From Frankia sp. AiPa1 (GTDB lineage Bacteria; Actinomycetota; Actinomycetes; Frankiales; Frankiaceae), in contig NZ_JALKFZ020000141.1 in the NCBI RefSeq assembly GCF_023243075.1, positions 62,001 through 126,000 of the forward strand: a stretch of 64,000 nt of DNA, read 5' to 3'. This document shows positions 3,128 to 35,540 of this stretch, piece by piece. Made by a program: the position numbers and the translations under genes. A model generated the notes under the pieces. The model did not search any database. It had not been told where the DNA came from and saw nothing but the letters and a program-made list of their open reading frames with translations. Position 1 is the stretch's first letter. The number at the start of each line of letters is the position of its first letter.

Positions 3128-6100
3128 TCACCCTGTGTAATGACGCTCGGAGGTCCAGCGGTACGCCTCCGCCTCGATGATCCTGGGCGTGCCGGGGCCG
3201 GGATCCTCGATGACGAATCCCCGGGCCCCCGTCACCGCCGGCGGCGACATGCCCTCACCGTCGTCGTAGCGCTGATAGTAGTGCCACGTCGGGGGGCCGA
3301 CAGGCGATGACGAACCGCCCTGCGGCGAATCCTCGTGCCGCCGCCGGTAGCTGATCTCCGTGGTCATCCGCGCGCCGCGGTCTCGGTGGCCGACCGCCAT
3401 GGGGTCACCGACGGTGACATAGTGGCCGTTGGTCGAGGCCCCGCGCGGCCAGCCATCGAACACCGGCGGGCGTCCTGTCCTGCCGGCCCCGGCGGCAGAT
3501 CCGGCGGCTCCGGCGATCGGCCCGGTATCCGGGCCACGGGCGGAATGCCGGCCGGTGGAGCCGCCCGTGTGCCGGGCAAGCCCACCGGCGATGCCGGCAC
3601 CGATCCCCGCACCTCCGCCCCCGCCCCTGGCGCCAGCGCCACGGCTACCATCACCACCGGCGGTCGATGGGCCTATGCCTATGCCGCCGGACCGCGTCCT
3701 GCTGCTGGCGGCAAGGCCCGTGGGGGCGGCGCCGAAGCGGCGCGAGTCCATCCCGTCCGGCCCGTGGGCCGCGCCGCCAACCGCGCCGGCCGGCAGGCCG
3801 TAGGGGGCTCGCCGTCGCGCCCCGCCCCGGGCTCCCCGGCCGGTGGTGATCGGGGTGGTGACCCGATGCGGCCCGGTCATCGGCGCCTGGCCGGCGCCGG
3901 CCGGGTGGCCGCGTGGCTCGTCGGCGTCCTCGCGCAGGCCGAAGCGGTCGTGCAGGCGGCGCAACGGCCCGGGCGCCCACCAGTTGTAGTCACCGGCCAA
4001 CGCCATGAACGCCGGCACGAGGATCGCCCGCACGACCGTGACGTCCAGGGTGATCGCGATGGTCAGTCCCACCCCGACTAGTTTGATCATGCTGATGTGC
4101 GACGTGGACAGGGCGACCATCACCACGACCAGGGCCAGGGCGACGCTGGTGATCAACGGGCCGGTGGCCCCGAGGCCGATCGCCACGGCCTCCGTGTTGT
4201 CCCGCGTGCGCTGGTACTCCTCGCGGATCCGAGCGAGCAGGAAGATCTCGTAGTCCATGCTCAGCCCGAACGCGATGAAGAACATCAGCACGGGACTGGT
4301 CATCTCCAGCGTCCCGGACACCTGGAAGCCGCCGACCAGGCCGCGCAGGTGCCCGTCCTGGAAGATGAACGTCAGCAGGCCGATCGTCGCCAACAGGTTC
4401 AACGAGTTCAGCAGCATCGCCTTGAGCGGGAGCAGCACGCTGCCGGTGAACAGGAACAACAGCACGAACGTGGCAACCATCACCACTGCGAACGCGCCGG
4501 GCAGGCTGTGCAGGATCGTGTGAGAGGTGTCCAGGAAGTGCGGCGCCAGACCGCCCATGAGGATCGCGAACGGCGCGGGTGTCGCCTCGATCCGCCGGAC
4601 GAGCCTCTTGGCCGCCTCCGACGTCGGTGAGCTATCCGTCTGCCACACCGAGAGCCAGGCACCCCCGTGGTCGCCGACGTAGCTCTCCTTGTCGGTCGAC
4701 GGCGGCACGGCCAGCCTGCCGGCCACGAATCTGCCGGTGACCGTGTCGATGGCGGCGACGCCCGGCAACGCCGAGAGCCGCGTGGCGTAGGCCGTCAGTT
4801 TCGCCGCGTTGGTCGGGTCACGGGCATCCAGGCCCGGCACCACGATCGGGATCTGGCACGGCAGGCAGGCCACGAAGTCGGTGCGCATCGCGTCGTTCAC
4901 GACATGGGATTCCGCACCGGCGGGCAGGACGGTGTCGTCCGCGAGCGAGAGGTTGAGGCTGCGCAGCGGCAGCGCGCACAGCAGCAGGACGACCACCGCG
5001 GCGCCGCCGAAGACGATCGGTCTGGCAAGCACCTTGCGCCCCAGGGCCGTCCAGCCCCGGCCGGCTCCGGACATCCCCTCCGCGCCCCCGGCGTGCCGTC
5101 TGCGGGCCTGCCCACGCCGGGCGAAGCAGGAGCGGGCGATCGCCGCCCGGATGTCACCGCGATCGAGCCGGTCACCGAGCACCATCAACGCCGCCGGCAG
5201 CACCAGCAGCGCCGCGACCTCCGACGCGACGACCACGATGGCCCCGGCGAAGGCGAACGAGCGCAGGTAGTCCAACGGGAAGACGAGCGCGGCGGTCAGC
5301 GAGAGGGCGACCGTCATCCCCGAGAAGAAGACCGTGCGGCCGGCGGTCTCCAGGGTGCGCCGCAGGGCGGCTCCGGGGAACAGGCCGCGGGCCTGTTCCT
5401 CCCGGAATCTTCGCAGGATGAACAGGCTGTAGTCGACGGCGAGTCCGAAGCCGAGCGCCGTCGTCAGGTTCACCGAGAACACCGAGATGTCGGTGACGGT
5501 CGCCGTCAGCCGCAGCAGGGCGAGGCTCGACACGACGGCGACCACGCCGACGAGCACCGGCAGCAGGGCCGCCGCGACCGTGCCGAACGCGTAGAGCAGG
5601 ACGAGGAACACCAGCGGCGCCGCGGCCAGCTCGCCACGTTCAAGGTCCGTCCTACTGTGTTCGGTGACATCACGCATGACGGCCGGGGCGCCACCGAACC
5701 TCACCTGCACGCCTGGCCCGCTGTGGGCGTAGGCGTCGTGCAGCTCGTTGAGCCGGTCCTGGATGTGATCCTCGGTGCCGGTCAGCCGGAACACGATGAG
5801 GGCCGAGCGGGTGTCCTTCGAGCGCAGCAGCGGGTTACCCGGGGTGGTCGCGCCCGGCCAGTAGGAGGCGACCGAGGTGACACCCGGCTCGGCGGTGATC
5901 TGCTGGGTGAGCTCCCGTCCCAGCCGGTCCGGCGTCGGGCCGGCGACGCCCTCCGACGAGGTGATGAGGATACCGATGTTCGGCGGCGCGTCCGGGAACT
6001 CCTCGTCGAGCAGCTGCTCGGCTCGGGTTGACGGATCGGACTTGGCGTAGAAGCCGCCGGTGGCCAGCTGGTGGTAGATTCCCGCGTTCCACGGGAGCAG

Positions 6101-27268: not shown

Positions 27269-29131
27269 TCAGCCCGGGCCCGACGCCGTGGCGGGACCGG
27301 GCCACCCGGATGTGACCGGGCTGGACGGTGCGGAACCGGGCCGGGCAGAGCCGGCCACGGTAGGTCCGGGTGCGGTAGGGCTCGGTGCGGCGAGGCGGCG
27401 GTAGAACGCGCTGGTCGCCATCAGCTCGTCATGGGTGCCCTGGGCCCGGACCTGGCCGGCGTCGAGAACGATAATGTGGTCGGCAGCCCGGATGGTGGAG
27501 ATCCGGTGGGCGATGACCAGCAGGGCCCGTTCGGCCGCGATCCGGCGCATCACCCGGGTCAGGGCCCGCTCGTTCACCGCGTCGAGCTGCGAGGTCGGCT
27601 CGTCCAGCAGCAGCACGGCGGGGCACGGCAGCAGCGCCCGGGCGATCGCCACCCGCTGGCGCTCCCCGCCGGAGAGCAGCACACCGTGATCACCCACGGG
27701 GGTGTACAGGCCGTCGGGCAATCGGTCGACCAGGTCACGCAGCCCCGCGGCGGTGACGACCTCCTCGACGTCGGCCTCGACGGCGTCCGGGACGGCGTAG
27801 ACGATGTTGTCCCACAGGGTTCCGTGCAACACCGGGGTGCCCTGCTCGACGAGGTTCACCGCGCCCCGGGCGCGATGCCGCGAGATCGACCGGACGTCCT
27901 GCCCGTCGACGAGCAGCTGGCCGCCGTCTGGCTCGTAGAACCGTTCGACGAGTTCCAGGATCGTCGACTTGCCGGCACCCGACGGCCCGACCAGCGCCAC
28001 CTGCCCGCTGCGTGGAACCTGGAACGACACCCCGCGCAGCACCGGCTGCGTGCCATAGGCGAACCACACGTCGCGCAGCTCCAGCGCTGGCTCATCCGGA
28101 GGGGCACCTTCGCGACCAGAGACAGCCCGAACCCGACCAGGTGCGTCCTGGACGTCGTCGGTCTCCCGCGGCAGAGTGTCGGTCTCCCGCGGCAGAGTGA
28201 AGACCGCGTTCACCCGGCCGAGGGCACCCAGGCCCCGCTGGATCGTCGCGGCGGACTCGACCAGCTGGCCCAGCGGCATGACCAGGTACGTGGCATAGAG
28301 CAGGAAGGCGACCAGGCTACCCAGCGTCGCCTGGCCCTGGGCCACCAGCACACCGCCGACCAGCAGGACTACGAGCACACTGCCCTGCACCGCGAGCTGC
28401 ATCGCCGGCGCGATGATCGAGTCGAGGGTGGCCATCCGCAGGCCGGCCCGGTAGGCGGACTTCGCGTGCGTGCCGATCCGCTCGGCCTCGCGGGCCTCGG
28501 CCCGGTTCGCCCGGACGGTGCGAATGGCAGTCAGGGCGCGTTCCAGATCGGCGGTCATCGCACCGACGCTTGCCTGCCCCCGCTCGGAGACCGACCGGAT
28601 CCGCGACAGGGCGCCGAGCACGACGGTCCCGGCGACCAGAACCACCGCGAGAACGAGCAGGAACAGCAGCGGGTTGAGCCAGATCATCAGGGCGATCGCG
28701 CCGACCACCCCGATCAGGCTGGTGACGAGCGCGGTGAAGCTGTAGGCGACAGCCTCCCGCACCACGGTCGTGTCGGTGTTCGCCCGGGAGATCAGATCCC
28801 CCATCCGCCGGGTGTCGAGCACCGCGATCCGCAACCGCAGCACATGGCCGATCAGACGCTGCCGCAACCCCAGCAGAACAGACTGGCCGGAGCGTTCCAG
28901 CAGGTAGTGCCCGACCGTGTCGACCAGCGCCTGCCCGACGAACAGTCCGAGCAGCGCCCCGACGATCCACAGCGGGATCCCGCCCGCCTGCGCGTCGTCG
29001 ATCACCCGCATCACCAACAGCGGCTGCAACACGCCGATGCCGGTGCCGACGATGGTCAACCCGGTGGCGATGGCCACTGGACGGCGATGCCCGCGCAGGA
29101 GCGTCCAGAGCTCCCCCAGTCCGCGGCGCAT
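27269..29131 (-). CDS. Lasso peptide ABC exporter (D protein)
   Basis: The 620-residue protein is a half-transporter with a six-helix membrane domain (about 20-310) followed by an ATPase domain (about 355-590). It has Walker A GPSGAGKST, signature LLSGGERQRVA and Walker B VLLLDEPTSQLD. There is no C39 peptidase domain, as expected for lasso clusters in which a separate B protein removes the leader. A homodimer would export the mature peptide and give immunity. The start ATG overlaps the B2 stop by one base (TGATG), so it is the last gene of a tightly coupled operon. A Pro/Ala/Gly-rich tail ends the protein. Confidence 0.9.
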   Translation of the reverse strand: MRRGLGELWTLLRGHRRPVAIATGLTIVGTGIGVLQPLLVMRVIDDAQAGGIPLWIVGALLGLFVGQALVDTVGHYLLERSGQSVLLGLRQRLIGHVLRLRIAVLDTRRMGDLISRANTDTTVVREAVAYSFTALVTSLIGVVGAIALMIWLNPLLFLLVLAVVLVAGTVVLGALSRIRSVSERGQASVGAMTADLERALTAIRTVRANRAEAREAERIGTHAKSAYRAGLRMATLDSIIAPAMQLAVQGSVLVVLLVGGVLVAQGQATLGSLVAFLLYATYLVMPLGQLVESAATIQRGLGALGRVNAVFTLPRETDTLPRETDDVQDAPGRVRAVSGREGAPPDEPALELRDVWFAYGTQPVLRGVSFQVPRSGQVALVGPSGAGKSTILELVERFYEPDGGQLLVDGQDVRSISRHRARGAVNLVEQGTPVLHGTLWDNIVYAVPDAVEADVEEVVTAAGLRDLVDRLPDGLYTPVGDHGVLLSGGERQRVAIARALLPCPAVLLLDEPTSQLDAVNERALTRVMRRIAAERALLVIAHRISTIRAADHIIVLDAGQVRAQGTHDELMATSAFYRRLAAPSPTAPGPTVAGSARPGSAPSSPVTSGWPGPATASGPG

Positions 29132-29610
29132 CAGGCAGCTCCGACCGCGGCATCGTCCGCGGAGCCGTCCGCGCCCAGGCCGTCATCACCGCCGGCGGTG
29201 ACGCGCAGCAACGTGCGCAGGTAGCCGGGCGGCACCGACTCGCCGACCATCACCCCGTCGGCCTCGACCCAGGCATGCGCGGCGAACGGCGCGAGGGCGC
29301 GCACGCCCACACACCAGGTCGGCACAGCGCCGGACGGCCGGCACAGCAGCATCGTGGCGATCGAACGGGGCACGCAGCCGCGGGCTCCCCGGCAGGTCAG
29401 GCTCACTGCCATCACCGCCTGCCGAGCGGACAGGGCATGGTCGAAGTCCGCGGGTCGGGCACCACGGGCCAGACGAGCCAGCACGTGACGGATGCGGGCG
29501 GGCTGCTGGGTGGCGAGCAGCCGCGCCGCGCCGACAGCCAGGCACGCACAGAACCGCCGTCCCAGGCCCAGGCTGATCTCCGGCGCCTCGATGGCCATCG
29601 GTGTACTCAT
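29131..29610 (-). CDS. Lasso peptide leader protease B2 (transglutaminase-like)
   Basis: The 159-residue protein matches the transglutaminase-like cysteine protease that cuts the lasso precursor leader. The expected catalytic residues are visible: Cys79 in RGCVPRSIA, His112 in AHAWVEADG and Asp118 in the same motif. Its start is ATG at 29610, overlapping the B1 stop in the order ATGA (29607-29610). An earlier in-frame start would run far into B1 and is not needed. B2 works with the RRE protein B1, which delivers the leader. The short C-terminal tail is Gly/Asp/Ala-rich and ends at the overlap with the exporter gene. Confidence 0.92.
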   Translation of the reverse strand: MSTPMAIEAPEISLGLGRRFCACLAVGAARLLATQQPARIRHVLARLARGARPADFDHALSARQAVMAVSLTCRGARGCVPRSIATMLLCRPSGAVPTWCVGVRALAPFAAHAWVEADGVMVGESVPPGYLRTLLRVTAGGDDGLGADGSADDAAVGAA

Positions 29611-30068
29611 CGACGCCGCCTCAGCTTCGACCGCAGCCCCGTCCTCGTCTCCTCCTGCGGGCCGGGCCGGGGCCACGACCGGTGGGAGGCATCCCGTGCC
29701 GGCCGGCCCGTCGCACCCCGTGGTGACCCGACGGGTCGATGGCGTGCCCCCCGGCCAGGTCGGTGGCCCGGCCCTGGGGCAACGTCCGGCGGCCGGGCGC
29801 CGGACGCGTCGCCGGTCGGATCGATCAGGCCCACGTCGCGGAGCTGCGCGAGCAGGCCCTCCACGTCACGGCGGGCGGTTTCCGGGTCGACGGCACCGGT
29901 GGCGCACAGCTGTCGGGTCGCCGCCGTCACGTCACCGCCGGCCAGCATCACCCGCAGGACGAGGTCGCCGGAGGGGTTGAGCGTCCAGTACTGCCCGTTG
30001 TCGGTGTGCAGCAGCACCGCGCCGTACTCGGTCGGCGCCCGCACGACGTCGGATCGAAGCGTCACCAT
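29607..30068 (-). CDS. Lasso peptide RRE protein B1 (PqqD-like) with extra tail
   Basis: The 153-residue protein has a PqqD-like RiPP recognition element in its first 85 residues, with sequence such as GQYWTLNPSGDLVLRVMLAGG and LRDVGLID. It should bind the conserved leader of the precursor and present it to B2. Known B1 proteins are about 80-90 residues. This one carries about 65 additional residues rich in Pro, Arg and Gly at its C-terminus, of unknown role. The start at ATG 30068 is preferred over GTG 30074, because GGGAG lies five bases before it. Its stop overlaps the B2 start. Confidence 0.88.
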   Translation of the reverse strand: MVTLRSDVVRAPTEYGAVLLHTDNGQYWTLNPSGDLVLRVMLAGGDVTAATRQLCATGAVDPETARRDVEGLLAQLRDVGLIDPTGDASGARPPDVAPGPGHRPGRGARHRPVGSPRGATGRPARDASHRSWPRPGPQEETRTGLRSKLRRRR

Positions 30069-30110
30069 CGTCACTCCCGCTGTTCCCGTCCCGCTGGTCC
30101 CGTCGCTCGG

Positions 30111-30190: not shown

Positions 30191-32122
30191 TCACTGCCGC
30201 CGGCCCGTCACTGCCGCTGGTTGTTCGCCGGTGCCGGTGCCGGTCACGGCGCGCAGCCAGGCGTCGGCGGCGATGGTGGGTTGCAGCGCTTCGGCGCGAT
30301 GGTCGGGCGCGATGCCCTGTCGGCAGGCCTGGCGCAGCAGATCCGGATCGATCAACCCGAGCTCGGCCAGTGGTGACTCGTCGCATAGCTTCACCAACAC
30401 CTCACGGTTGGCCCGCAGCCCCAGATCCTCCTCCGCGGACGCGTCGGCCTTGGTGCGCCGGTGCAGGCACTCCGCCGGCACCACCGGGCGCATCGCCTCC
30501 TTGAGCAGCGGCTTGTACTCCCAGGGAGTGGACCGCTGCTCGGGACGCACGGCCAGCGCCGCACGCACGACCCGCTCGTCGTAGAACGGCGCGGACAGCG
30601 GCGGACCGACCGGACCCGCGATCTGGTCGAACAGCCGGAACGCCGAGGCGCCCGCCCGCAGCGTGAACAGGTCGGCATGCGCGGCCCTGGACTCGGCGAG
30701 CGGCAGGGCCCGGTCGGCCGCCGTGGTGAAGGCCTCCGTGACCAGGTCCAGGGCAGCATCGGTGAGCCAGCCGGGAACGATCGGCGGCAGCGTCCAGTCC
30801 AGCGCCGTGAGGTACCGCTGGGCGGACCGTCGCGGCCAGGGGCCCTGCGGCGTGGCGTGCGCGCCCGGACCGCCGGAGCCGCCGTGACGCGCGGCGCCAC
30901 GGGCGCGGGCGGCCTGCGCCGCGCCGAGGGTGCGGGCCATGTCGCGCAGACAGTCCTGATAGTCCCGGGACCGCATCATACGCAGGCTCGCCGCCCAGGG
31001 CCAGCCCTGCTGGGCCCGGTAACCGCGCAGATGCCGCAGCGCCGTCCACGGACGGTGCCGGATGAGCGCCGCCAGGTGATTCGGGTTGCCGCCGACGAGC
31101 TCGTCGCCGCCGAATCCGGTCAGATGCAGGCGCGGGCCGTACAGCGCGAGGCGGTCGAGACCAGCCAGGAGTTTCGCCCGGTCGACGATGCCGACGAACG
31201 GACGGTCCGTCGGACCGTCCGGCTCGTCGATGCGGTCGTAGACCAGCGGCAGCTCGGCTGCCGGCAGGGTCTCCCGGGCGAGGTTCGGCAGCGATGCGGC
31301 GAGCCGCCCGGCCCAGTACGGGTCGTCGTCGCCGGGGTCCCGGGCCATTCCGGTGAAGGCGACGACGTCGGCCGGCCCCCGGGTGGCCAGGCAGCACACC
31401 ACACTCGAGTCCAGACCGCCGGAGAGGTCGGTGCTGACGGTCCGGCCCGCCGCGACCCGCACGGCCACCGCCTCGGCAAGCGCCGCCCGCAGCAGCGGGG
31501 CGCCCTGCACCCGGCTGCGCACCGCCGCCGGTGCCCGCCACCAGCGCACCGTGCGGGCCCGGTCGTCCCGGCCCACGCACAGATAGTGGTCGGGCGGCAC
31601 CGCGTCGACGGACGTGAACGGAACCAGGTCGTCGAGCGGGTACGGCGGCGACGGGTCGAGCAGCGCGAGGGCCAGTGCCGTCCGATCCAGATGGGCGCCG
31701 CACATAGCGGCGAGGATGTCGGCGCGGTCCGCGGCCAGCAGGTGGGGGCCCATCCGAGCGGTGAAGATCCGCCGGGTGCCGCTCGCGGTGCCCTGGATCC
31801 GCTGCTGCCCCTCGATCTCGGCGATCACGTGGTAGTCGCCGGCGACCTCTCTGGCCAGGTCGAGCGCGTGCACGTCGCGGGCCGCGACCAGCAGTTCCAG
31901 CAGCCGGCTCGGCCGGACGGCGGCACAGCCAACCAGAGCTATCCGGCGGCGCCCGGCCGTCACACTGACGATGGCATCGTCAGGCCAGGCGCCGACGATC
32001 CAGGGCCGGCTCGAGTGGTGACGCACCGCCCGGTGCGCCCCGGCAGGCACCACCACCTGGTCACGGTCGGGCAGGACGACGAACCAGCAGCCCGGCAGGC
32101 CCAACCGCGCGGGTGTCCTCAC
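30191..32122 (-). CDS. Lasso peptide cyclase (asparagine-synthetase-like, C protein)
   Basis: The 643-residue protein resembles asparagine synthetase B and is the ATP-dependent macrolactam-forming enzyme of lasso clusters. The nucleotide-binding PP-loop SGGLDS is at residues 234-239, and GFGGDELVGGNPNH follows in the synthetase domain. The N-terminal glutaminase-like half does not start with the catalytic Cys of true amidotransferases, as usual for lasso cyclases. It activates the Asp or Glu side chain of the core and joins it to the new N-terminal amine. The start is GTG at 32122, 17 bases after the precursor stop, so it should be translated from the same transcript. The tandem repeat begins right at its stop. 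Confidence 0.9.
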   Translation of the reverse strand: MRTPARLGLPGCWFVVLPDRDQVVVPAGAHRAVRHHSSRPWIVGAWPDDAIVSVTAGRRRIALVGCAAVRPSRLLELLVAARDVHALDLAREVAGDYHVIAEIEGQQRIQGTASGTRRIFTARMGPHLLAADRADILAAMCGAHLDRTALALALLDPSPPYPLDDLVPFTSVDAVPPDHYLCVGRDDRARTVRWWRAPAAVRSRVQGAPLLRAALAEAVAVRVAAGRTVSTDLSGGLDSSVVCCLATRGPADVVAFTGMARDPGDDDPYWAGRLAASLPNLARETLPAAELPLVYDRIDEPDGPTDRPFVGIVDRAKLLAGLDRLALYGPRLHLTGFGGDELVGGNPNHLAALIRHRPWTALRHLRGYRAQQGWPWAASLRMMRSRDYQDCLRDMARTLGAAQAARARGAARHGGSGGPGAHATPQGPWPRRSAQRYLTALDWTLPPIVPGWLTDAALDLVTEAFTTAADRALPLAESRAAHADLFTLRAGASAFRLFDQIAGPVGPPLSAPFYDERVVRAALAVRPEQRSTPWEYKPLLKEAMRPVVPAECLHRRTKADASAEEDLGLRANREVLVKLCDESPLAELGLIDPDLLRQACRQGIAPDHRAEALQPTIAADAWLRAVTGTGTGEQPAAVTGRRQ

Positions 32123-32139: not shown

Positions 32140-32346
32140 TCAGAAGAAGAACCCGCCGGCGACGAAGCCCCCGCCGCCGACTCCGGCGCCGCCGAATCCG
32201 CCTCCACCCCCGCAGCCACCGTCGCAGCCGTAGTCATAGCCGAACCGGCGGTAGAAGTAGTCGTGCCCCCAGCCCCAGCGGCCCCGGGTGACGTCACTGA
32301 AACTGCCGGCGGTGGACAGCTGCGGGCGTTCGTAGGTCGCAGTCAT
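32140..32346 (-). CDS. Lasso peptide precursor (A) with long Gly-rich tail
   Basis: The 68-residue peptide is a lasso precursor. The leader shows the full recognition pattern Y5xxP8xL10xxxG14xF16xxxT20. Thr20 is the penultimate leader residue, and the cut is expected after Arg21. The core would then start GRWGWGHD, giving Gly1 and Asp8 for an 8-residue ring. Normal cores are about 15-26 residues. This one has 47, with an aromatic/Arg stretch, a CxxxC pair and a Gly/Phe-rich tail ending in FFF. The start is ATG at 32346, with GAGGGG about eight bases upstream. An earlier in-frame ATG (32391) lacks family support. The gene heads the operon with C, B1, B2 and D. Confidence 0.9.
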   Translation of the reverse strand: MTATYERPQLSTAGSFSDVTRGRWGWGHDYFYRRFGYDYGCDGGCGGGGGFGGAGVGGGGFVAGGFFF

Positions 32347-32409: not shown

Positions 32410-33444
32410 TCAGCGCCGGTTCACCGGGCGCCCTCGCCCGGCGGCTCCCGAGACCACCGACGATCCGGGCGCACTCGACCCGCCCGACCCGCCTGACGGG
32501 CCCGCGGCGCCGGACGGCGTCGGCCGCAGGGACGCCCGGGCAGCCGGGGTGGAATCCAGCACCTGCCGGTGGACGCGGCGCAGCTCCGCCCCGGGTTCGA
32601 TGCCGAGGTCGGCGACCAGCCGTCGGTACAGCGCGCTGTACTCGTCGAGCGCCTCAGCGCGCCGGCCGCTGCGTTCCAGCGCGGTCAGCAGCTGCGCCCA
32701 CAGGCGTTCCCGGTTCGGGAACTCGATGGTCAGCGCGCGCAGTAGCGGCAGCACCTCGTCCGTCTCCCCGAGCGCGAGACGCGTGTCGATGAGCTCCTCC
32801 CGGGCGGCGAAGCGCGCCTCCTCCAGGCGTTGGACTTGCGCCGCGCCGATCTCGGCCGGCAACTCGTCGAAGGCGTCGCCCCGCCACCAGCCCAGCGCCT
32901 CCTCGAACAGTTCGGCGGCCGGCTGCCACCGCGCATCCCGCACCGCCTGGCGGGCGCGAGTGAGGATGTTCTCGAACCGCAGCACGTCGAACTCGTCCGG
33001 GTCCACGAGCAGCCGGTACTCTCCCGGCCGGCTCTCGATGCGGCCAGGCCCCACCGACCGGCGCAGGACCGAGGCCCGCGGGCCGACCACCATGACCGCG
33101 TCCCGCGGGCCCGGTGCGCCCGTGGGCCCAGGCAGCGTGTGCCGCAGCTCCGACAGGTAGGTCTTGATGTTGCCGAGCGCCGAGCGCGGCGGCACGTCCT
33201 GCCACAGGGCGAGACGCAGTTCCTCCACGGCCGTCCACCGGCCCGGGCGCAGCAGAAGGGTGAGCAGCAGCACCCGCTTCTTGCGCTGGTCGATGCGGAT
33301 CTGTTCACCGGGCGCCCGCCACACCTCCAGCGGTCCGAGCGCGGCGAACAACATCCCGGACCCAGCGCCCGAACCGCCTCTGGGCGCCGGACTGTTCCCC
33401 GGCGCCGGACTGTTCCCCGGCGCCGACCTGCCACCGTCGACCAT
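32410..33444 (-). CDS. SARP/AfsR-type transcription activator
   Basis: The 344-residue protein has an OmpR-like winged helix (about residues 30-125; QRKKRVLLLTLLLRPG, LGNIKTYLSELRHTL) followed by a bacterial transcriptional activation domain (BTAD, about 150-300; ELIDTRLALGE, PNRERLWAQLLTALERSGR). Such SARP proteins switch on antibiotic-type clusters by binding direct repeats near the -35 region. No NTPase domain follows. It lies 63 bases upstream of the lasso precursor on the same strand, so it may be co-transcribed and control the cluster. The start is ATG at 33444, with GAGG six bases before it. Short repeats (NSPAPG) sit at the N-terminus. Confidence 0.87.
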   Translation of the reverse strand: MVDGGRSAPGNSPAPGNSPAPRGGSGAGSGMLFAALGPLEVWRAPGEQIRIDQRKKRVLLLTLLLRPGRWTAVEELRLALWQDVPPRSALGNIKTYLSELRHTLPGPTGAPGPRDAVMVVGPRASVLRRSVGPGRIESRPGEYRLLVDPDEFDVLRFENILTRARQAVRDARWQPAAELFEEALGWWRGDAFDELPAEIGAAQVQRLEEARFAAREELIDTRLALGETDEVLPLLRALTIEFPNRERLWAQLLTALERSGRRAEALDEYSALYRRLVADLGIEPGAELRRVHRQVLDSTPAARASLRPTPSGAAGPSGGSGGSSAPGSSVVSGAAGRGRPVNRR

Positions 33445-33621
33445 GATGATCCTCGTCGGTCGGGGACCGTCCGCACACGGGCGATCCTCACCAGACGGAC
33501 CCCGAATGTCGCGCCACCGCCCGGGGACCGGCGACCCGTCTGGGCCGCTGCTGGAAGTACCCCACCCCGACTGGGGTAGTCCCTTCCACGCGTCGGACAC
33601 GCAGATACGCAGCGGATTCGC

Positions 33622-34398
33622 TCAGATCCCCAGCCGGGCGCGCGTCCGCGGACCGACCGCGCCGTCCGCGATCAGGCCGTGCTTGAGCTGGTAGTCCTTG
33701 ACCATGTGGTTGGTCTGGTATCCGAACTTGCCGTCGACGGCGATCGGGTACCCGAGGTTCGCCAACCGCTGCTGGACCTTCTGGACATCCGAACGCCAGC
33801 CGAGCCCACTGGCAAGCGAGGGGTAGGCACTCGTCGTCGACGACGACGACGAGGACGAGGCCGAGGGCGAGGACGAGGACGGCGCGCTCGCAGGCGCGTA
33901 CGAGACCGAGCGCACACTCAGGCCGCCGGACACCGCCACCGCGGCCGCGGCACCCCGCGTCTGGTACCGGGCGTACATGCCATTGGTGTAGGTGCTCCAG
34001 GCCCGCACGCCCTGACTCGCGCAGACCTGCCGGGCCGCCCACGCGTTGGTCGCCGGGTCGTACAGGTTGCGCCCGCCCACCCAGCCGCCGTGCGCCCGCA
34101 TGTTGATCTGCCACAGTCCACGGGAGTCCTCACCGACCGTGGCGTGGGCGTAGGTGTTGCCGCCCGACTCCGCCAGGGCCATCGCGACCCAGGTCGACAG
34201 CGACGCTCCCCCGCACCCGGCGAGACCCGCGTTCGCCGCGACCCGGGCGATCTGGGAGTCCGGGATCCTGCTGCCGGTCGCGGCGCTGGCCGGATTCGCG
34301 GTGGCGAACATGCTGGCGCCCACGCCGAGCACGCCGAGCGCGGCGACGGTGGCGCCTCGACGCTGGGTCGAAGGCTTCCGATGCTTTCCCTTGGCCAT
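33622..34398 (-). CDS. Secreted lysozyme-like protein with peptidoglycan-binding domain
   Basis: The 258-residue protein starts with a basic signal peptide (MAKGKHRKPS, then a hydrophobic stretch ending NPASAATG). A lysozyme/Rpf-like transglycosylase domain follows (about 45-160), with AMALAESGGN holding the likely catalytic Glu and SRGLWQINMRAHGG. A poly-Ser linker of about 30 residues leads to a C-terminal peptidoglycan-binding domain type 1 (VQKVQQRLANLGY, KDYQLKHGLIADGAVGPRTRARLGI). It should cleave or remodel wall glycan outside the cell. The start is ATG at 34398 because the signal peptide begins there; the ribosome site is weak. I found no c-di-AMP riboswitch upstream, which is common in front of similar genes. 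Confidence 0.87.
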   Translation of the reverse strand: MAKGKHRKPSTQRRGATVAALGVLGVGASMFATANPASAATGSRIPDSQIARVAANAGLAGCGGASLSTWVAMALAESGGNTYAHATVGEDSRGLWQINMRAHGGWVGGRNLYDPATNAWAARQVCASQGVRAWSTYTNGMYARYQTRGAAAAVAVSGGLSVRSVSYAPASAPSSSSPSASSSSSSSTTSAYPSLASGLGWRSDVQKVQQRLANLGYPIAVDGKFGYQTNHMVKDYQLKHGLIADGAVGPRTRARLGI

Positions 34399-35540
34399 TC
34401 TCTGACATCTCGTTTCGGTGTCGTGGAGCACGGTCACAGAATTACTGCTGACAGCCACAAGGAGCCCGGCTGAATCTTTTTTTTAAATGGGCAGCACGGA
34501 TTACTTATTTGTGAAAACCCACACGCGGGCAGGATGTAACCACCGCCCGAGATCATTTATTCGAGCGGCATGGAGAATCTGTGCTCAGCGGGATGGACCG
34601 CGAGTGGGCGCGTGCGGCAGCCGCCGTCGGCGTTCAGGCCCGACGGACGCCCGGGCCGCTCGGGCGACCGAGCCAGTCAGGTGCAGGCCGCGCGAGCGAC
34701 CGGGCCGCCGAACGGACGGGTCACCCGAACCATCAGGCCAGGCAGGCAACGCGGCCCTCAGGCCGCGCGGGATGCCGCGCAACCCAGCGCGAGGTCCCCG
34801 ATCAGCGTGGCGGGTCCATACAGAGCGATCGGGCCGCGCTGGACCTCGGGCCGAGAAGAAAGGCCGGAACCGTGCGGCACGGCCGGAGAAGGCGACTGGT
34901 GGCGGGCGACTCGGACAGAACGCGAGACAGTATCGTGACCGATCTCGCGGGAGTCGGCACGGCAGCCGAAGCGGCCGGGCATTCCCGAAATGCAGGCAAC
35001 GTCTGGTCCTTCCCGTACGCCTGCGAGGTTAGCTGTCGGGTGCGGACCGGGAAGTCCGGCCATCCGTATACGGACGGCTTAACCCCGAGAGCAGCCCATC
35101 ACGCGGCTGCTCAGAGGAACCTGGTTCCCCCGCTTCTGCCCAACTGACATGGAGGGGACCTCGAGCCGTGGGCAGAACTCGGCGTCGGCTCGAAGCGTCG
35201 ATGCCAGGCAACCGTAGCGAACTACTCAGGGTAGTGACAAGTACTAGTTCAGTACGAATCCAGCCACCCATCCGTGACGATGCGTGCCTAGAGCTGTGGC
35301 GCAGGTACTATCTGACATCATCTTCCGCCTCGGCGACGCATCGCATCGACCTCGCCACCCGGACGGGAGAAGCGGTGGCCCCGGCGCCTTGGGCCTGATC
35401 GAGCGCCCGCACGCGACTCGCGAGACGATCGGAGCGTGAGCGCGCCGGCGTCGTACTCACGGTCTGCGCATCGCCCGGTCGGCCGACGCGCCCGTCCACC
35501 CGCAACCCCGGTTCCGCCGAACCGGACCGAAAGAGCAGCC
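34399..35540. other. Long intergenic region with AT-rich patch and hairpins
   Basis: No gene is firmly supported in this 1.14-kb stretch. The left end (34470-34560) is AT-rich for this genome and contains a run of eight T, suggesting a promoter for the lysozyme-like gene. The middle is low-complexity GC-rich sequence with GCGACCG-type repetition. A cluster of hairpins occupies 35043-35177. A 76-codon frame starts with GTG at 35168 and has a GGAGGGG site 11 bases before, but its product is not recognisable, so I do not call it as a gene. Confidence 0.45.
35043..35177 (+). other. Array of five hairpins, possible structured RNA
   Basis: Five stems follow each other: CGGAC/GTCCG (35043-35058), the palindrome TCCGTATACGGA (35063-35074), GAGCAGCC/GGCTGCTC (35089-35112), GGAACC-T-GGTTCC (35116-35128), and TTCTGCCCA/TGGGCAGAA (35134-35142 with 35169-35177). 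The loop of the last holds GGAGGGG, and its right arm overlaps a GTG codon at 35168, so pairing could affect a start. I could not match this to a known riboswitch class. Confidence 0.45.

Follow-up and report, generated by a model that had tools for sequence, protein, structure and literature searches.

How long a tail can a lasso peptide carry? The longest reported in one review is that of pandonodin, a class IV lasso peptide with a tail of 18 aa and 33 aa overall (PMC13352647). Extra tail residues usually reduce lasso yield, although astexin-1 and pandonodin tolerate fusions (PMC13352647). Tryptophan modification also has a precedent, since RES-701-2 and RES-701-4 are lasso peptides with 7-hydroxy-Trp (PMC9266682). 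Here we describe an operon whose product, judging from its genes, is probably a lasso peptide with a Gly-rich tail that is native and very long. The operon lies in a 64,000-nucleotide stretch of Frankia DNA, hereafter the window, which is contig C165 in a draft genome of 6.98 Mb (G000).

The precursor and its operon

The precursor gene A (32140..32346, minus strand) encodes 68 aa between an ATG at 32346 and a stop codon at 32142-32140, with a ribosome-binding-like stretch, GAGAGGGG, 5' of the ATG. Its minus-strand translation reads MTATYERPQLSTAGSFSDVTR (leader) followed by GRWGWGHDYFYRRFGYDYGCDGGCGGGGGFGGAGVGGGGFVAGGFFF (core). An earlier note made from the DNA alone had described a lasso leader joined to a 47-residue Gly-rich core, and the open reading frame, its match to NF033521 and its orthologues all bear this out. 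The 21-residue leader (32284..32346, minus) carries the YxxPxLxxxGxFxxxT pattern with Thr at position −2, as the lasso rule claimed for it prescribes, and scores above the cut-off of 19 against the NF033521 lasso_leader_L3 profile (E 6.4e-6, 25.9 bits). The core begins with Gly1, has its ring acid within positions 7-9 (Asp8), and continues through an aromatic/Arg segment, a C20/C24 pair and a Gly/Phe tail to a C-terminal FFF. Residues 1-8, GRWGWGHD (32260..32283, minus), form the predicted macrolactam ring, closed between the Gly1 amine and Asp8, and these ring residues are kept in orthologues of two genera. Residues 9-19, YFYRRFGYDYG (32227..32259, minus), are the putative loop and steric plug, and residues 20-47, CDGGCGGGGGFGGAGVGGGGFVAGGFFF (32143..32226, minus), are the Gly-rich tail, which is under purifying selection and has a conserved ending. 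No RNA structure signal was found at the end of the gene (z 0.20).

The operon runs regulator, A, C, B1, B2 and ABC exporter on one strand throughout. C (30191..32122, minus) is an asparagine-synthetase-like lasso cyclase (PF00733, 2.9e-41) in which the SGGLDS, GGDE, EYKP and TKA motifs are all intact; its best curated match is NF033561 (3.1e-73), the albusnodin/ikarugamycin cyclase family, at 247.2 bits and so below the 300-bit cut-off. B1 (29607..30074, minus) is a PqqD-like leader-binding protein, or RRE (NF033530, 1.8e-27), and B2 (open reading frame 29131..29676, likely start ATG 29610, minus) is a Transglut_core3 leader peptidase (NF033537, 5.1e-29) whose Cys and His are kept in all homologues. 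Both B1 and B2 exceed their curated cut-offs, and with the catalytic motifs of B2 and C intact, the adjacent B1/B2/C set that had been postulated is complete. The exporter (27269..29131, minus) has membrane (PF00664) and ATPase (PF00005) domains, and a domain search found no peptidase domain in it. Upstream of A is a SARP/BTAD-type regulator (32410..33600, minus; PF03704, 2.1e-38), and almost every Frankiaceae cluster has such a gene adjoining A or B1. Upstream of the regulator, a lysozyme-like protein with SLT_3 and PG_binding_1 domains (33622-34458, minus) is syntenic in clusters of Frankia (g1) and was not found in other genera.

Orthologues, core length and selection

At the B2 locus, the nearest named relatives are Frankia sp. 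R82, Frankia sp. AgB32 and Frankia sp. CiP1_Cm_nod1. A B2 scan of the contig collection gave only four loci; whole-genome searches recovered more. Of 35 Frankiaceae genomes, 14 contain a match to the precursor. Because orthologous operons elsewhere in Frankiaceae repeat its leader, ring and tail, the precursor is more than a chance reading frame. Frankia orthologues repeat the ring GRWGWGHD and the ending GGFVAGGFFF (variants FFY and FIV), such that GGFVAGGF(F/I)(F/Y/V) closes all six full-length sequences. The second genus, g7, has GRWGWGRD as its ring and GGGGGAIIIVGGG or similar as its tail. Genomes whose cyclase motifs are intact thus keep the ring as GRWGWG[H/R]D; a Gly-rich tail recurs in the family while its sequence differs between genera. 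The aromatic/Arg pattern of residues 9-19 is kept among orthologues as [YW]..RRF or [YW]L[WY]RSF. The CxxxC pair pointed out in the earlier note is present in the window, but only its two closest relatives (G008 and G012) share it, other orthologues having a single Cys or none; it is therefore not a conserved feature, and we rejected it as a defining disulfide.

Pooled over the six Frankia orthologues, pN/pS is 0.34 for the leader, 0.14 for core residues 1-18 and 0.34 for the tail (residue 19 onward), values that are descriptive only because orthologue pairs are not independent. All gaps in the alignment of these six are whole codons.

The length of the core, which the earlier note had thought exceptional, is so by comparison: about 48 lasso-leader precursors from Actinomycetes outside Frankiaceae have cores of 14-36 aa, against 47 in the window, single control lengths perhaps being off by one or two because the core start was set by a simple rule. 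Approximately 46 of these controls have Asp or Glu at positions 7-9. Where Frankiaceae clusters combine intact cyclase motifs with a ring acid, the core measures 34-48 aa in 11 of 13 cases, the exceptions being G023 (30 residues, with Asp9) and G034. In the latter, an intact cyclase accompanies a core of 20 residues, so a long tail cannot be a requirement.

Other precursors were seen along the way. Genus g6 has a third, Tyr/Arg/Gly-rich core type, GYYGYHRRNYYGGYHGYRRFRGFRRFRY, in clusters with or without a cyclase (L122, L123, L124 and L125). In genus g7, L099 (G033) and L103 (G028) hold a seemingly separate, conventional lasso precursor, GQPGLLLDAIISIGTIS or similar, with G1 and D8, and several genomes of the g7 group have second B2 copies.

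Decay and loss of the cyclase

The ring acid and the catalytic residues of the cyclase are kept or lost together in Frankiaceae clusters: 13 clusters have an intact cyclase and a ring acid, one has the cyclase only (G022), two have the acid only (G003 and G024) and seven have neither (Fisher p 0.001, with clusters counted as independent despite their relatedness). Catalytic residues of the cyclase are mutated in seven genomes, where the neighbouring precursor has mostly decayed or lacks the ring acid; B1, B2 and the exporter are still constrained there. In G001, G004, G009, G010 and G011 the local precursor is decayed and catalytic-motif residues are lost, for example by change of SGGLDS to SGGLAS, of GGDE to GGVE, GGEE or GGAQ, or by loss of EYKP. 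In G005, Asp8 has been lost through an internal deletion (GRWGRGHGGGGFAAGGFFF) and the cyclase shows Lys-to-Arg and TK-to-SR changes, and in G003 a tail-less core of 15 residues stands next to a cyclase with SGGLSS instead of SGGLDS. The dN/dS of C is 0.33-0.47 in the decayed group of five and 0.31-0.33 in G005 pairs, compared with 0.20-0.28 among the window, G008 and G012, a contrast that is only moderate because the intact g7 group spans 0.18-0.36. For B1, B2 and the exporter, dN/dS is mostly 0.1-0.3.

Ten of the 31 Frankiaceae genomes in which B2 was found (G016-G021, G024, G026, G029 and G032) have no cyclase in the cluster, and a genome-wide search of these ten at E 1e-15 gave none. B1, B2 and the regulator are retained, as is the exporter where the contig extends far enough. 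On a tree of B1, B2 and the exporter, the cyclase-free genomes occupy five places, and the degraded cyclases belong to G003 and a single Frankia clade. The sister genomes G022 and G026 carry acid-less precursors that closely resemble each other, and only G022 retains the cyclase.

Precursors away from the operon

Searched with the leader model, most Frankiaceae showed lasso-type leaders at sites outside the operon. The 33 orphan precursors that we collected have cores of 29-52 residues with a median of 56% Gly and 27% Trp, and not one of the 33 has Asp or Glu at core positions 7-9. A search at E 1e-7 located precursors of this kind in 23 of 35 Frankiaceae; the 360 other Actinomycetes had none. 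The genome of the window has two orphans (G000:C135:18123-18326 and G000:C59:2750-2935) and only one B2 that we could find, so both would need the B1-B2 pair of the window unless another peptidase serves them. The first, GFFVAGFGGGGGGWGWGRHWGGYGGWGGYGCDGYGG... (about 8124-8326 of L033, minus), has no lasso enzyme or VioD-like gene nearby. The second, MKATYDPPILQHQGSFLEATGFIGFFFGGRGGWGGWGHWGG..., is a Gly/Trp-rich precursor with a lasso leader, followed 235 bp downstream by the gene of a VioD-like FAD monooxygenase (G000:C59:2750-4400, L159).

In 17 genomes such a flavoprotein is encoded downstream of an orphan precursor, on the same strand and 100-305 bp away. The best solved match of the flavoprotein is VioD, a tryptophan hydroxylase (E 4e-38), and it is present in 23 of 35 Frankiaceae. 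The flavoprotein may, by homology, oxidise the tryptophans of the orphan peptides, a proposal only, because the family is common in Actinomycetes that have no such peptides. It is widespread there, and we saw no Gly/Trp-rich or lasso-leader gene beside the non-Frankiaceae homologues that were checked; as far as seen, the association is specific to Frankiaceae, and we rejected the VioD-like gene as a marker outside the family. In G033, a long G run upstream of a VioD-like gene (L165, about 3900-4500) looks like a misassembled Gly/Trp-rich precursor.

Both kinds of peptide place a hydrophobic patch beside a Gly run, with FVAGGF and AIIIVGGG in ringed tails and FFVAGF, GFIIIGGGG and AGVIIVGGGG in orphans, a likeness that is only suggestive because the sequence is of low complexity.

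Discussion

What does this operon make? We propose that B1 binds the leader of the precursor, that B2 cleaves after Arg21, as the Thr −2 rule would predict, and that C then activates Asp8 and bonds the amine of Gly1 to it, closing the ring around core residues 9-19, after which the exporter would carry the product outside. The tail of about 28 residues would be a retained part of the product and not a discarded extension. It may be the part common in kind to other, mostly ringless, Frankiaceae peptides that use this leader system, and the lasso ring could be regarded as a knot that such secreted Gly-rich peptides may or may not carry at the N-terminus.

That the frame itself is in error and the true core ends earlier is highly improbable. 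The Gly run is a GC-rich, error-prone context, and some of the draft genomes have contig ends or misassemblies at Gly-coding runs, as in G033, where a G run is misassembled at a similar orphan gene. Nevertheless, independent assemblies give the same frame and tail, and synonymous changes dominate. Given the pN/pS of the tail and gaps that occur only in multiples of three, we exclude a frame error or missed stop, which the earlier note had suggested checking through homologues. A more substantial objection, though one we judge unlikely to be correct, is that the peptide is an ordinary lasso whose tail is cut off during or after export, leaving a mature product of about 15-20 residues (GRWGWGHDYFYRRFG...). 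Carboxypeptidases are known to shorten lasso tails (PMC13352647), and there are the 20-residue orthologue in G034 and the tail-less GRWGWGRDYSWRRFA in G003. The latter might seem to prove the tail dispensable, an argument weakened by the lack of the catalytic Asp in the G003 cyclase: because this neighbouring enzyme reads SGGLSS, the precursor is possibly a degenerate allele. Two further points speak against trimming: the operon of the window has no recognisable additional protease, and the extreme C-terminus, GGFVAGGFFF, is kept in six Frankia orthologues.

The cyclase could instead be irrelevant, such that only leader removal and export operate on a linear Gly-rich peptide. The ten genomes with B1, B2 and an exporter and no cyclase, together with the 33 orphans lacking an acid at positions 7-9, are in keeping with such a product, and so is G022, with an intact cyclase and an acid-less precursor, which also counts against the long-tailed lasso. 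For the window this is nonetheless improbable: it and its relatives keep both Asp8 and the cyclase motifs, and the ring and loop are the most constrained part of the precursor. Among the three options raised in the earlier note, then, a lasso with an exceptional tail best explains this gene and a new RiPP using lasso enzymes explains it less well, although the latter description may well be right for the acid-free relatives elsewhere in the same genomes.

These comparisons suggest that, in Frankiaceae, Gly-rich peptides in general are served by the half of the lasso machinery that processes the leader and exports the product. Quite possibly, if we may offer a tentative wider reading, the lasso leader, RRE, peptidase and exporter are now a general secretion system for such peptides, with the cyclase optional and repeatedly lost. 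Its main substrates would be linear peptides, rich in Gly and Trp and encoded outside the operon, many of them paired with the VioD-like flavoprotein that may oxidise their Trp, and the peptide of the window would be the ringed form. If so, the linear substrates would represent a new class of RiPP, one that uses lasso enzymes and contains no lasso. As for the role of the window's peptide, our guess, for which only a weak case can be made, is that it is extracellular and self-associating, or surface- or membrane-binding, with the knot protecting its N-terminus; an antimicrobial role is equally possible.

The joint loss of ring acid and cyclase residues, with the leader peptidase kept, is a natural experiment that splits the two halves of lasso maturation. 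The comparative pattern also suggests that plant symbionts encode a family of Gly/Trp-rich peptides that seems not to have been described before; we found no description of them or of the window's peptide in the open-access literature.

Comparison with known systems

Standard actinobacterial NF033521 precursors share the leader grammar, Thr at −2, G1 and D/E at positions 7-9 with the window, but their cores are 14-36 aa long in our sample and are not Gly-rich. Albusnodin/ikarugamycin-family clusters provide the best curated match of the cyclase (NF033561); however, the window's enzyme falls below the family cut-off, its core is unlike albusnodin, and no acetyltransferase was recognised next to the operon. 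RES-701-2 and RES-701-4 are a precedent in the lasso field for Trp hydroxylation, relevant to the orphan relatives, but they have a single C-terminal Trp and the enzyme proposed for them, ResE, is a hypothetical protein (PMC9266682). Pandonodin (PMC13352647, citing Cheung-Lee et al. 2019) is alike in its B1/B2/C lasso logic, its long C-terminal tail and a Cys pair in that tail (C20/C24 in the window, one of only three strains that have it). The window differs in its 47-aa core with about 28 tail residues, in being Gly-rich and actinobacterial, and in being known from its genes alone. If the product is full length, it would be longer, both overall and in its tail, than any lasso peptide that the review names (PMC13352647), and as a naturally occurring fusion of a lasso ring with a repetitive Gly-rich chain it could help to define the tail-threading limit of a lasso cyclase.
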